Shown here: piece by piece, positions 23,412 to 27,198 of the stretch
Layout of the letters: each line of letters begins with the position of its first letter
Numbering within the stretch: position 1 is the first letter of the stretch
Virus record (IMG/VR): IMGVR_UViG_3300028025_005271
Span: 1 to 27,198 of that record
From: a virus
DNA: 27,198 nt
Reading direction: 5' to 3' (one strand)
Notes under the pieces: model-generated
What the model was told of the DNA's origin: nothing
The model's input: only the letters and a program-made list of their open reading frames with translations
Databases searched by the model: none
Program-made: the position numbers and the translations under genes

Positions 23412-25115
23412 TCAGTTTTTCAAGACGTGCCAGGCGACATGGCAGAGTTTTACGGCGTCCATGTAGTGATCTTGCGCCACGGATTTCCAAACGAACTCTT
23501 GCCCGGTGGCGGTCTTGCGGGGCACGAGGCGCTGGCCGCTCATGCCGCGAAGGAAGTCTTCGGTGGTGTCGCGCGGGATGGCGAGCGGGGGCTTGCCGTT
23601 GCGGATGCGGTCGATGAAGAGTTCCGTCTTTATGGCATGGTCGACGAAGGTGTAGAGCACGACGCCGGGGAAGTCGTCGATGACGGTGCGCCCGATGCGG
23701 CTGCCGAAGGTGGCGCCGGAGCCTTTGGCGGCGTGCCAGAATCCGGCGCTGACTTGGCAAGCGGTGTAAACGCGGAAGGTGGCAAAGCCGGAATCCATGA
23801 GGCCGCACTCGGGGCGGACTTCCTGCCCGCTGGGTGTGCGGTAGATGCGGCGGGGCGAGTCGGCGAGGAGGTCTTCGATGGTGAGCGTGGTGCCGTAGTC
23901 GAGGACATAGCTCTGGCCGTTGGCGTCGAAGGCGACCGTGGTCCAGTGCTGTTTGTCCTGGCCGATGTCGGCGCAGGTCACGATGTGCGCTGGCTCGATC
24001 GGGCAGGTGCCGCGCGTGTAGTCGCCGCGCAGGCTGAGAATGTTGGCGTCGCCGATTGATGTTTCAACCTGTTCCCACGGCATGGCCATCGTGCTGTTGG
24101 TGAAATCTTGGAGGCCGTTGAGCGTGTCTTTGTCGCGGAGGAATTTCACGGCAAGCGCGCCGAATGTGCAGGAGCGCCACGGCGCGTAGAGGGAATTAAG
24201 GTGGAAGCTGCGAAACCCACGCTGGGCGCTGGGGTTTGTGGCTTGCCACTTGCCGTCTTGCAGGGCTTCGATTTTCTGGCCGTCGTTCCATTCGCCTCCG
24301 CACCGCTGGCAAATGTAGCGCGCGGATTCTTCGACTCGGGCCATGTTCCACTTGCCTGCCACTTTTGCGTCGGTGTCCCACTTGACCTGTTCCCAAAGTA
24401 GCTCGATGCGCTCGTGGCAGTGCGGGCAGGCGAGCATGAATTTCTCCTGTGTGCCTTTCTGGTATTCCTGCCAGATCGCGCCGTCCGGCGTGGTGGGTGT
24501 GCTGGTCTTGACGCGAAGCGCGCCGACGAAGGACTTCGTGCGGTTCTCTGCGAGGAAAAGCGCGGAGGTTTCTTGGTCGGTCTCGCGGGCGAATTTGTCC
24601 ACCTCGTCCATCAGCAGGAGTCCGGCGGGACGGCTGGCGAGGTTCGCTGGGGAGTTGCTGCCGACGAAGACGAGCGAGCACCGCGAAAAATGCTGCTCGA
24701 GGTTTTTGAATTTGTGCCGGTCCGCTGGCTTCTGAGCGGCGAGCGTGGCGCTGTCGTCGAATAGCGGTAGCCAGCGCGTCTCGGAGAAGGATCGGGCGAG
24801 GCCTTCGGTTGGCATGACCCACACGACGGGCTGCGGTTTGTTCACGATCCGCCATGCCGTGCCTGCTTGGACCATCGTCGTCTTGCCGGTCTGCGTTCCA
24901 AAGACGAGCACGAGGTCGGAAACATCGACATCGCCGAAGCACCCGAGCGGCTCGCGGAGGTAGGGCGTGAGGCGTGTGCTGAAGTTGCCGGGCATCTGCG
25001 TCTGCCGCTCGCTCAATATCACCTCGTCAGCGCACCACTCGGTGACGGTGCGCCGGTCGATGGGCGCGTAGATCGAGCGCAGGTGTTCGCGTAGGGCTTC
25101 GGCGGCGGGGGTCAT
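23412..25115 (-). CDS. Terminase large subunit (GpA family)
   Basis: A 567-residue DNA packaging motor and nuclease. The ATPase part has Walker A GTQTGKTT (73-80) and Walker B LLLMDEVD (166-173). A zinc-finger-like insert holds Cys230, Cys233, Cys269 and Cys272. The nuclease part has candidate metal ligands Asp383 (CADIGQD), Asp441 (LMDSG) and Asp549/Asp553 (DHYMDAVKL). This matches phage lambda gpA-type terminases, suggesting cos-type packaging. The start overlaps the formyltransferase stop by ATGA. No small terminase subunit is recognisable in the window. Confidence 0.95.
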   Translation of the reverse strand: MTPAAEALREHLRSIYAPIDRRTVTEWCADEVILSERQTQMPGNFSTRLTPYLREPLGCFGDVDVSDLVLVFGTQTGKTTMVQAGTAWRIVNKPQPVVWVMPTEGLARSFSETRWLPLFDDSATLAAQKPADRHKFKNLEQHFSRCSLVFVGSNSPANLASRPAGLLLMDEVDKFARETDQETSALFLAENRTKSFVGALRVKTSTPTTPDGAIWQEYQKGTQEKFMLACPHCHERIELLWEQVKWDTDAKVAGKWNMARVEESARYICQRCGGEWNDGQKIEALQDGKWQATNPSAQRGFRSFHLNSLYAPWRSCTFGALAVKFLRDKDTLNGLQDFTNSTMAMPWEQVETSIGDANILSLRGDYTRGTCPIEPAHIVTCADIGQDKQHWTTVAFDANGQSYVLDYGTTLTIEDLLADSPRRIYRTPSGQEVRPECGLMDSGFATFRVYTACQVSAGFWHAAKGSGATFGSRIGRTVIDDFPGVVLYTFVDHAIKTELFIDRIRNGKPPLAIPRDTTEDFLRGMSGQRLVPRKTATGQEFVWKSVAQDHYMDAVKLCHVAWHVLKN

Positions 25116-25750
25116 TTGGAATATGGCAGCATGATGAGGTCGGGCCTAAACGCTGGCGGCCTGTCTATGGAAGGTTCCCAAGTCGCAACGGCCTCGTCCT
25201 GTGGTTCGCCGTTTATGAATCCTTCGCGGGCGTAGCGCAGAACGGAATGCGTGAGAAGTTCCACGCCTAGCGGTCCAAGTAAATCGCGCCAGAGCGTTTG
25301 TGCGGTATCGCCGGTGCGAACAAAAACATGTCTTTGCACGATGATGTTTCCGCCGTCCATTCGGTTTGATAGCCGGTAAACGCTCCCTCCCGTGATTTTG
25401 TCGCCCATGCGAATCGTCCACCGCACGGCGTCGCGGCCGCGATGAACCGGGAGCATCGAGGGGTGGTAGCCAACGCCGCCGTGGGTTGCGCGGAGTCTTG
25501 TTTTTTCGCTGATAAAATCGTGGCTATGAGCGGCAACGATCAAATCAACGCCGTCCGGCATTGTTGCGGCTTTCAGCGTTCCCGATGGGATGACCGGGAC
25601 GCGCCAGAGTTTTGCTTGCGCGGTGAGCTTGTCCTCGCGTTCCCCGCTAACCGGGGAGCATACGGCGGCGATTGAAACCTCCGGGTGTTTCCTAAGTTCA
25701 CGGAAAACCTCCGCGCCAAACCACTTTTGACCTGCAAGAAGAATTTTCAT
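25112..25750 (-). CDS. Formyltransferase-fold enzyme
   Basis: A 212-residue protein with the formyl_trans_N fold of methionyl-tRNA or GAR formyltransferases. It has a Rossmann start MKILLAGQKWFGAEVF, the catalytic region VGYHPSMLPVHRGRDAVRW (93-111) and TGGSVYRLSNRMDGGNI (120-136). Of the Asn-His-Asp triad, His96 and Asp132 are present, but the Asn position is Gly94. No C-terminal tRNA-binding domain is present. In MTF the one-carbon donor is a folate; here the substrate is unknown. The enzyme is ATGA-coupled both to GNAT and to terminase, which suggests action on phage DNA or on a packaging step. Confidence 0.85.
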   Translation of the reverse strand: MKILLAGQKWFGAEVFRELRKHPEVSIAAVCSPVSGEREDKLTAQAKLWRVPVIPSGTLKAATMPDGVDLIVAAHSHDFISEKTRLRATHGGVGYHPSMLPVHRGRDAVRWTIRMGDKITGGSVYRLSNRMDGGNIIVQRHVFVRTGDTAQTLWRDLLGPLGVELLTHSVLRYAREGFINGEPQDEAVATWEPSIDRPPAFRPDLIMLPYSK

Positions 25751-26268
25751 TTTCCTATGTATTTGAATCCTTGGACGGCGCGGAAGTGACCGCCGTAGCC
25801 GGAGTCTGCTTTTGCCGTTCCGCTTTTTTTAATACTTGCTGCGCTTTTCTTTTTATTGCCCCCGTTAAGAACCGCAGAAACCTGCAGCCAGTCTTTCGAC
25901 CGCTTGAGAAAAGCGCATAGCTGCGGGTGAGACGTGTGAAAGTATGTCGGAAGTTTTAAGCCCTTCCTGCCGCCTCCGCCTTTGTGAAAGGAGCAAACCC
26001 AATTTAGAAACTTAGTTCCTACGCCAGCGCCTTGCCATTCCGGCATGACTACAAGCCGTGTCGCCCGGTATGCTGGTATTTCAAATCTTGGTGTGACAGC
26101 CAAGTGCGCAACCGGCTCGCCGTCAACCATACCAACGAAATACTCGGCCGCAACTGGCATCGGCAGGTCTAAATAGTAATGCGGCTTAAAGAGATGCCAG
26201 TAACTGGAATTGACCTTCCTAATTTCCAGCTCGATTCTTGGGCGTTTATAAGGGCCGCCGCCCTCGCT
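25747..26268 (-). CDS. GNAT acyltransferase domain (frameshifted partner of the ABC ATPase)
   Basis: The second half of a predicted ABC-GNAT fusion: 173 residues from SEGGGPYKRPRIELEI to QGFKYIGK. GNAT signs are FVGMVDGEPVAHLAV (strands), TRLVVMPEWQGAGVG (motif A, acyl-CoA binding) and a conserved-looking LFKPHYYLDL. There is no ATG, GTG or TTG between the slippery A-run and the PHYY core, so translation should enter by -1 frameshift from the ABC frame. Mu Mom, a DNA-modifying enzyme, is also a GNAT-fold protein, but no Mom-specific motif can be claimed. The stop overlaps the formyltransferase start by ATGA. Confidence 0.8.
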   Translation of the reverse strand, partial: SEGGGPYKRPRIELEIRKVNSSYWHLFKPHYYLDLPMPVAAEYFVGMVDGEPVAHLAVTPRFEIPAYRATRLVVMPEWQGAGVGTKFLNWVCSFHKGGGGRKGLKLPTYFHTSHPQLCAFLKRSKDWLQVSAVLNGGNKKKSAASIKKSGTAKADSGYGGHFRAVQGFKYIGK

Positions 26269-26867
26269 TTTTTTATTATTTGTCCAGTTGATGTGTCGAA
26301 AACCCAGTCGGGTTCTAACCAGTCGAGAATGTCGTAGTGGCAGGAAAGCAGAACGGCCTTCTTGCCATTCGTTCTGCGCCACGCTTTCGCAAACGCAAGC
26401 GCTCCGATCTTTGCAATCTGCCTGTCGATCACGGAAGTGAACTCATCGACCACCAAAATATCCGGCGGGTCGCACAGGCAACGCGCAAGCCCGGCTCGAA
26501 ATTGCTGTCCGTTACTCAAAGCCTTGAACGGCCTGAGCCATGCCGGGACATCGCCAAGCCCCACGGCGGCGAGCGCGCCGGTGACTTCGTTAAAGTCTCC
26601 GTCTGGCGCTATGGCGTCAACAATAGGCGCGTCATCCGGCCAGCCGTGGTAAAGGTCTGTGATGCCGCCGCCGATGGATCGCCCGATGCTTGACTTACCG
26701 GTTCCTGACGGTCCGACCACAACGCCAATCTGCCAATCGTCATCGGGGCCGGGGATTTCCGCGTCGAGCTGGAAGGTGTCTCCGCGCTCCGGGTTAAACA
26801 AAGATTTAACTCGGGCGGCTCGGTAGGAGTTAAAATCTCGGCAGGAGTTTCTGATTTCGATTTTCAT
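26169..26867 (-). CDS. ABC-type ATPase (N-terminal part of an ABC-GNAT protein)
   Basis: A cytosolic ABC ATPase without membrane partners. Start 26867 is set by an ATGA overlap with the ParB-like gene. It shows RAARVKSLFN (17-26), Walker A GPSGTGKSS (52-60), signature LSNGQQ (117-122), Walker B ILVVDEFTS (137-145) and H-loop SCHYDI (175-180). In-frame reading passes the A-run at codon 200 and ends after a poorly structured tail at 26169. COG2401 is described as an ABC-type ATPase fused to a predicted acetyltransferase, so the expected product is the 373-residue fusion made by -1 frameshift. The role may be DNA modification or defence evasion, but that is unproven. Confidence 0.85.
   Translation of the reverse strand: MKIEIRNSCRDFNSYRAARVKSLFNPERGDTFQLDAEIPGPDDDWQIGVVVGPSGTGKSSIGRSIGGGITDLYHGWPDDAPIVDAIAPDGDFNEVTGALAAVGLGDVPAWLRPFKALSNGQQFRAGLARCLCDPPDILVVDEFTSVIDRQIAKIGALAFAKAWRRTNGKKAVLLSCHYDILDWLEPDWVFDTSTGQIIKKARAAALINAQESSWKLGRSIPVTGISLSRITI
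26251..26274 (-). promoter_or_regulatory. Candidate -1 frameshift site, A AAA AAA plus hairpin
   Basis: Seven A on the minus strand (26274-26268) are read in the ABC frame as ATA AAA AAA. A tandem slip by -1 puts ribosomes into the GNAT frame (next codon AGC). A short hairpin AGGGC-GGCG-GCCCT (26264-26251) follows after three bases. Both parts suit frameshifting or transcript slippage; a plain indel or sequencing error is the alternative. Confidence 0.6.
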
Positions 26868-27198
26868 ACGCAAACAACTTTGCACTCCAAGCCGTCGGCG
26901 GTGAGCTTGTCGTATATTTTTCTCTGGTGCGCTTCGTCTTTGCAGATAACCGTGACCGCGTATTGCTCCGCAAAGTTTTCGTCCGTGCTTTTCTCTTCTT
27001 CTTCCTCCGGGACTTCGGCGAGGTCTTCAGCGCCGAACCCAATCTCGGTGGCATCGATGTCCAAGGCCGCGAGATCCGCCAGCTCGAGCTTGAGCATTTC
27101 CTCATCCCACCCGCCGCCGATCTCGGCGAGACGGTTGTCGGCGAGGATGTAGGCTCGGCGCTGCGTGTCGGTGAGGTGGCCGAGGCGGATGCAGGGGA
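26864..27198 (-). CDS. ParB-like protein, C-terminal part (cut by window edge)
   Basis: The frame stays open to the window edge, so the N-terminus is missing. The visible start of the read, IRLGHLTDTQRRAYILADNR followed by LAEIGGGWDEEMLKLEL, is the second half of a ParB/Srx nuclease-like domain. IGFGAEDL and an acidic stretch follow. The C-terminal domain (EQYAVTVICKDEAHQRKIYD, LTADGLECKVV) is often found in phage ParB-like proteins with or without a DNA methylase. A short internal ATG (27097) would not be the true start. The stop overlaps the ABC start by ATGA. Confidence 0.85.
   Translation of the reverse strand, partial: PCIRLGHLTDTQRRAYILADNRLAEIGGGWDEEMLKLELADLAALDIDATEIGFGAEDLAEVPEEEEEKSTDENFAEQYAVTVICKDEAHQRKIYDKLTADGLECKVVCV

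Follow-up and report, generated by a model that had tools for sequence, protein, structure and literature searches.

An ABC-ATPase/GNAT gene predicted to be read in two ways within a putative phage DNA-modification cassette

The 27,198-base virus fragment IMGVR_UViG_3300028025_005271 (IMG/VR; this whole stretch is hereafter called the window) raises the question of how an ABC ATPase and a GNAT acyltransferase that lie side by side in different frames are expressed, and what they do. On the minus strand, read from right to left, the locus encodes the C-terminal part of a ParB-like protein, the ABC ATPase, the GNAT, a formyltransferase-fold protein, and a GpA-type terminase. The original prediction, made from the nucleotide sequence of this DNA, described four neighboring units sharing ATGA overlaps all the way into the terminase gene. 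Its fold assignments (ParB-like, ABC, GNAT, formyltransferase, and terminase) are matched by PHROG and Pfam-type (PF) profiles, and the units are present together with three of the overlaps (ParB/ABC at 26867-26864, GNAT/formyltransferase at 25750-25747, and formyltransferase/terminase at 25115-25112), but there is no ATGA junction between ABC and GNAT. The features of the ABC and GNAT interval are as follows.

26169..26867, minus strand: ABC ATPase, zero-frame product (ABC-only, with a 32-amino-acid (aa) tail past the slip site); PF00005, E 2e-8
26268..26274, minus strand: A7 slippery run, codons ATA AAA AAA GCG, with a predicted -1 shift into the GNAT frame
26169..26171, minus strand: zero-frame stop TAG, within the GNAT-frame Leu codon of HYYL
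25747..26267, minus strand: GNAT acyltransferase domain in the -1 frame; PF00583, E 2e-5; the shift would give an ABC-GNAT protein of ~373 aa

We found that ABC and GNAT, treated as distinct units in the original prediction, form the two halves of a single protein, linked through a -1 shift at the A7 run, a frameshift absent from that account. The family phrog_11143 is a single 357-aa ABC+GNAT protein, residues 1-194 of which match the ABC open reading frame (ORF) and residues 192-351 the GNAT ORF, in different frames. The frame change from ABC to GNAT is -1 and falls exactly at the A7 run ATA AAA AAA GCG; the slippery heptamer A AAA AAA G stands at the frame junction, in the -1 direction, in the window and in relatives. 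Both domains occur in one polypeptide, via the -1 shift in the window and in a single frame in most relatives. The ABC half carries Walker A (GPSGTGKS), signature (LSNGQ), Walker B (VVDEF), and H-loop (CHYD) motifs. The split and the A7 run are common to three other metagenome contigs (L091, L092, and L093, with 95, 94.6, and 89% nucleotide identity), and the ratio of nonsynonymous to synonymous substitution rates (omega) in the GNAT frame is 0.06-0.12 between the window and these contigs, which indicates purifying selection, and 0.06-0.24 across all split pairs with computable synonymous divergence. Retention of the split in three contigs, together with purifying selection on the GNAT half, leads us to regard it as neither error nor decay. 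GNAT as an independent gene with its own start was rejected: its frame has no start codon between A7 and the domain, and the start codons available farther upstream would produce another N-terminus.

In dnaX-type -1 programmed frameshifting, the heptamer A AAA AAG yields a short and a long product from one gene, and the two share the ATPase part. The window resembles this system in its poly-A heptamer and in having one gene with short and long products that would share the ATPase part; it differs in the gene concerned and in that the long product is the shifted one.

The comparison covered 294 distinct ABC/GNAT junctions, taken from phage records, genomes, and viral contigs. The scan near the window used the ABC part only and is therefore unbiased for fusion; a pattern search for A7 was biased and was excluded from the rates. 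In the ABC-only scan, 22 of 77 distinct junctions were -1 split, 21 of these at a run of A6-A11 (19 with at least seven A residues and two with A6), and a run of at least A7 occurred in only 1 of 55 in-frame junctions. A scan with the formyltransferase identified 9 split junctions, all with at least A7, and 41 in-frame junctions, none with at least A7. A divergent clade contains 9 split junctions with A9-A10 and 41 in-frame junctions with an A10 run (mostly CAAAAAAAAAATAG), and at the latter a -1 slip meets TAG at once. The -1 split also occurs, with other slip sequences, in four cultured phages (Streptococcus Javan141 and MismyG, Lactococcus P335, and Oenococcus Vinitor-27).

The frame that ends after the junction does so at a fixed position. 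In all 64 split members, the ABC frame continues 24-32 codons beyond the A run and stops within one Leu codon, that of the GNAT motif H-Y/H-(Y)-L. All 184 in-frame members without an A run also have this stop out of frame, against ~95 expected from each gene's own Leu codon usage; after clustering of similar sequences, the figures are 168 of 168 against 87 expected. At the stop-bearing Leu, CTC and CTT are never used, and CTG or TTG is used only if A follows. For control leucines within these genes, the counts match expectation (15 against 16.3 and 38 against 38.3). The sequences share kinship, so a product of probabilities is no true p-value; the contrast between the fixed stop and the control leucines is unexplained by relatedness. 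A conserved stop in the other frame supports the prediction that both products are made. The more distant Aeromonas AsFcp_2 is without the fixed stop; in a side observation, the accession QAX98348.1, cited in PMC7824862 beside Tenacibaculum phage pT24, is from Aeromonas phage AsFcp_2 (L457) according to the record.

The in-frame members carry a different motif at the linker, which reads (A/C)GG GGG NNN CTT and then TGG, CGG, or CGA, or is a close variant of this. The Leu at the putative slip position is CTT in 149 of 150 in-frame members (32 expected), and the GGG codon is used in 69 of 71 (16 expected). A run resembling a Shine-Dalgarno sequence precedes CTT at about the prfB spacing in 121 of 184 in-frame members, with exactly (A/C)GG GGG in 62; it is missing mostly in Bacteroidota relatives, which retain CTT CGG, and also in some members in which CCC, GTT, or CAT replaces CTT. 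The codon after CTT is TGG in 64, CGG in 54, and CGA in 17, in place of the TGA stop of prfB, the release factor 2 (RF2) gene. The +1 site of prfB has the layout AGGGGG, three bases, CTTT (PMC12421855), and in one survey every CUU-stop site of the RECODE set was prfB (PMC10274946). The in-frame relatives share with prfB the AGGGGG, the three bases, CTT, a slow next codon, and the same spacing; unlike in prfB, a sense codon (TGG or CGG) serves as the slow codon, and the shift shortens the protein, with the conserved stop ~30 codons on. After a +1 slip at CTT, translation would continue in the frame that holds the fixed stop. Initiation within the gene at AGGGGG was considered and rejected, as CTT is no start codon and conservation of the +1-frame stop would be left unexplained.

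Members with a -1 site gain GNAT by the shift, whereas in-frame members would lose GNAT by theirs, so both would give ABC-only and ABC-GNAT; two opposite recoding signals are thus predicted to yield the same pair of products. We consider it very likely that recoding to two products takes place in vivo. The accessible text of frameshifting reports does not mention the ABC-GNAT family.

The gene set around the recoded gene comprises the following features.

26864..27198, minus strand: ParB-like protein, C-terminal part; PHROG ParB, E 1.5e-17; N-terminus beyond the record end
26867..26968, minus strand: small domain phrog_28816, 34 residues, conserved; here the ParB C-terminus
25112..25750, minus strand: formyltransferase-fold protein related to 10-formyltetrahydrofolate dehydrogenase (FDH); PF00551, E 2e-17; His96 and Asp132 conserved, Gly94 in place of the N-x-H Asn
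23412..25115, minus strand: terminase large subunit, GpA type, downstream neighbor; PF05876, E 6e-59; ATGA-coupled

The original prediction proposed a DNA-modification cassette, and this is the best-supported function, based on a prior prediction for ABC-GNAT proteins and on the genes that occupy the upstream slot; with DNA as the substrate, we judge it likely. Acylation of DNA bases is the role predicted for ABC-coupled GNATs by Iyer et al. (2021, PMC7824862). Their system has the same two domains in one protein, occurs in phages, often has ParB-like genes upstream, and is assigned predicted base acylation; the accessible text mentions neither the recoding to two products nor the Com link, the small domain, or a formyltransferase partner. 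Immediately upstream of the cassette, 42 relatives carry a Com ORF, which in most cases overlaps a small ORF placed before ABC-GNAT. In Mu, translation of mom is activated by Com, a zinc-finger protein (PMC6483171). Com precedes a DNA-modification gene in eight of nine phages inspected, namely Mom in Mu and Dam or another methyltransferase in seven others.

The cassette resembles Com-Mom of Mu in the GNAT fold, in the 42 relatives also in the position of Com directly upstream with a usually overlapping start, and, in Mu-like phages, in its site after the tail-fibre genes; in Komp_PAO1_1, which is Mu-like, tail-fibre assembly is followed by com, small domain, ABC-GNAT, and formyltransferase. 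It differs from Com-Mom in lacking a Mom sequence match, in adding an ABC ATPase and a formyltransferase, and, in the window, in having ParB in place of Com. Homology to Mom was rejected on the basis of phmmer, which gave no match of cassette loci to Mom, and a search for a close Mu-like relative of Komp_PAO1_1 carrying com-mom at that site found none. The small domain forms the ParB C-terminus in the window but is encoded on its own in Com-type loci, so ParB and Com appear to substitute for each other at the front of the cassette; Bacteroidota relatives also have the domain as a stand-alone ORF. An ABC-GNAT structure model of moderate quality (predicted local distance difference test (pLDDT) 77) did not tie the fold to a DNA-bound structure, as the best 50 Foldseek hits were nearly all transporter-type ABC ATPases with low whole-chain template modeling (TM) scores.

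The formyltransferase gene is directly downstream of ABC-GNAT in 143 of 165 loci, and 11 of the 22 loci without it end at a contig edge; it is a conserved third part of the cassette. The Asn of N-x-H is absent in 72 of 72 sequences read, with Gly, Ile, or Val instead, and the His is kept; the Asp is invariant in aligned sets, and H-P-S and D-x-G are kept. This corresponds to the FDH active site, which has His, Ser, and Asp and no Asn at N-x-H. In Fmt, ArnA, and GART this Asn is described as crucial; the FDH hydrolase domain has Ile at the position (PMC4388273). The FDH hydrolase domain is also the best sequence match (E 1.8e-41) and, for the AlphaFold2 model of the formyltransferase (pLDDT 87), ranks first in Foldseek (TM 0.82). 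FDH passes formyl to a 4'-phosphopantetheine arm (PMC8748788), and HypX has been proposed to pass formyl to coenzyme A (CoA) (PMC6802093). The phage protein shares with the hydrolase domain of ALDH1L1 (10-formyl-tetrahydrofolate dehydrogenase) and the N-terminal domain of HypX, beyond the FDH matches and the missing Asn, an HPSLLP motif; unlike them, it stands alone beside a GNAT, with no attached carrier domain or dehydrogenase. We prefer formyl-CoA as the donor because FDH, the nearest relative, passes formyl to a thiol and HypX is proposed to do so for CoA. The resulting formyl-thioester route, from 10-formyl-tetrahydrofolate to formyl-CoA for the GNAT, is a tentative suggestion and, on balance, rather unlikely.

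A serious alternative, to which we give somewhat less than even odds, is that the formyltransferase acts after the GNAT, placing a formyl or other one-carbon group onto an amine installed by the GNAT, or hydrolyzes formyl-folate, and makes no formyl thioester. The His and Asp that are kept are sufficient for formyl removal in FDH, and the relatives Fmt, ArnA, and GART formylate amines; however, replacement of the Asn described as crucial for formylation by those enzymes (PMC4388273) by Gly, Ile, or Val in all 72 sequences argues against such a role, as does delivery of formyl to a thiol by the nearest solved relatives, with HypX proposed to make formyl-CoA (PMC6802093).

We propose that the locus is a phage DNA-base modification cassette centered on a single ABC-ATPase/GNAT gene whose double reading is deliberate. 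In the window, most ribosomes would stay in frame and make ABC-only, and a fraction would move back by one base on A AAA AAA, producing ABC-GNAT. The two products may assemble as an ABC dimer, in which we infer fewer acyltransferase domains than ATPase subunits; the dimer would spend ATP to clamp or remodel DNA, and the GNAT would acylate a base amine. The ParB-like/small-domain protein may target or regulate ABC-GNAT, with Com as the probable regulator in Mu-like relatives. The formyltransferase-fold protein would most likely move formyl from 10-formyl-tetrahydrofolate to the phosphopantetheine thiol of CoA, making the acyl donor; alternatively, it would formylate the newly added group. Like Mom in Mu, the resulting mark would shield the phage genome from restriction. 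The frame structure, the conserved slip sites and stop, the conserved gene set, the Com slot, and the active-site change were computed directly. Recoding and DNA modification jointly, leaving aside the formyl-thioester step, we hold to be nearly as probable as the function alone. The full reading, in which a GNAT on an ABC clamp formylates DNA bases with formyl-CoA, recoding sets the ratio of clamp to acyltransferase, and -1 poly-A and RF2-like +1 sites were swapped in evolution with both products kept, we place at a probability of about one in four.

Several points weigh against this reading. In the window, the hairpin that follows A7 does not exceed shuffled sequences in strength (z 0.31), and most relatives at 60% identity have no A run. 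The window has ParB instead of Com, and the predicted function is transferred from relatives that are ~55-65% identical. At the ninth Com site, a bacteriocin locus, the next gene encodes an unidentified protein, and Mu Mom as a phmmer query matched only Mu itself among the loci. To our knowledge, formyl-CoA is without precedent as a GNAT donor.

The two products could instead arise by transcriptional slippage of RNA polymerase on the A run, which we consider unlikely though not negligible. Bacterial RNA polymerase slips at run lengths of A9-A11; many relatives have such runs, and the divergent clade retains an in-frame A10 followed by TAG in the shifted frame. The window run, however, is only A7, two members (L293 and L294) carry A6G, which is too short for slippage, and the CTT-type sites of in-frame members cannot be polymerase slippage. 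In addition, a sister clade with A7 has a hairpin typical of ribosomal -1 signals. The downstream stem in this clade is paired in 96% of cells, with two pairs changed on both sides, whereas pairing falls to ~50% or less for slid versions of the stem, and two members have hairpin z values of -3.15 and -2.79. One downstream stem shared across the window clade was considered and rejected, as the stems there are in different registers.

It is improbable that the cassette modifies a target other than DNA, such as host RNA polymerase, tRNA, or a surface glycan or lipid. GNAT and formyltransferase folds do occur in sugar-amine and tRNA pathways, ArnA, WbkC, and Fmt are among the formyltransferase profile matches, and a GNAT of phiKMV-like phages acetylates RNA polymerase (PMC7824862). 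Nevertheless, the catalytic Asn of sugar and tRNA formyltransferases is absent in 72 of 72 members read, the Com slot and the ParB-like partner count against such a target, and there are no glycan or lipid genes among the annotated neighbors of the named relatives.

The original prediction also read the coupling to terminase as modification timed to packaging, which we find quite improbable. The ATGA overlap into the terminase gene in the window and the same gene order in Gordonia NHagos are in its favor, as is contig L091, which suggests insertion between small- and large-terminase genes. The ParB-like gene is truncated by the record end in the window; L091 (95% identical) has a complete ParB with a GHGR motif, and directly before this gene is a helix-turn-helix protein (L091, 1359-2012) that is a small-terminase candidate, from which the cassette may lie between the two terminase genes. 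The gene set is indeed near terminase in many relatives, including Gordonia NHagos, but the terminase is not part of the cassette in all of them: the cassette follows tail genes in Mu-like and Porphyromonas relatives (in Mu-like ones, the tail-fibre genes), and several genes separate it from terminase in other relatives. Timing at packaging is thus not supported as a general rule.

A sequencing error or decaying gene, as might be suggested by frames separated by one homopolymer only and by a majority of relatives in frame, is extremely improbable and is already refuted as far as sequence can do so, given the identical split and A7 in three other metagenome contigs, the GNAT omega of 0.06-0.12 relative to the window, splits at A6-A11 in many lineages that are always -1 and always have the same stop, and the -1 split with the same stop in the cultured phages P335, Javan141, MismyG, and Vinitor-27.

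Relative to the original prediction, what is new is the frameshift (the most unusual feature of all), the link to Com, and the change in the formyltransferase active site. If the reading is correct, a gene family in which recoding signals of opposite direction maintain one pair of products would amount to a rare natural experiment, selection would act on the product ratio and not on the mechanism, and there would be a large family with an RF2-like +1 site outside prfB. For phage-host conflict, the long-standing prediction of DNA acylation by ABC-GNAT would be developed into a system of three parts with a specific hypothesis for the donor, and the cassette is present in cultured phages.

Automatic annotation splits or misnames the ABC-GNAT and formyltransferase genes, for example as a siderophore transporter or a tRNA-methyltransferase. 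In the records of P335, MismyG, Javan141, and Vinitor-27 (L008, L449, L450, and L455), the ABC part is annotated as an ABC, siderophore, or oligopeptide transporter and the GNAT part as a separate or hypothetical gene; the family stop is present, and the slip sequence is not poly-A. The Com of Pseudomonas DVM-2008 (L461, 1884-2857) is in a bacteriocin locus, and the next protein is no known DNA-modification enzyme. The formyltransferase-fold protein is annotated as a tRNA-methyltransferase in several Gordonia phages (L004 and Gordonia phages H1-H8). In the Rhodococcus/Gordonia phage Jace (L009, 5074-5499), the gene after ABC-GNAT is annotated as an aspartate decarboxylase in place of a formyltransferase; the decarboxylase is possibly a different donor enzyme in the same slot. 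In Tenacibaculum phage pT24 (L448, 1877-3049), two consecutive coding sequences are both named ABC transporter ATP-binding, and the pair is probably another split ABC-GNAT gene.

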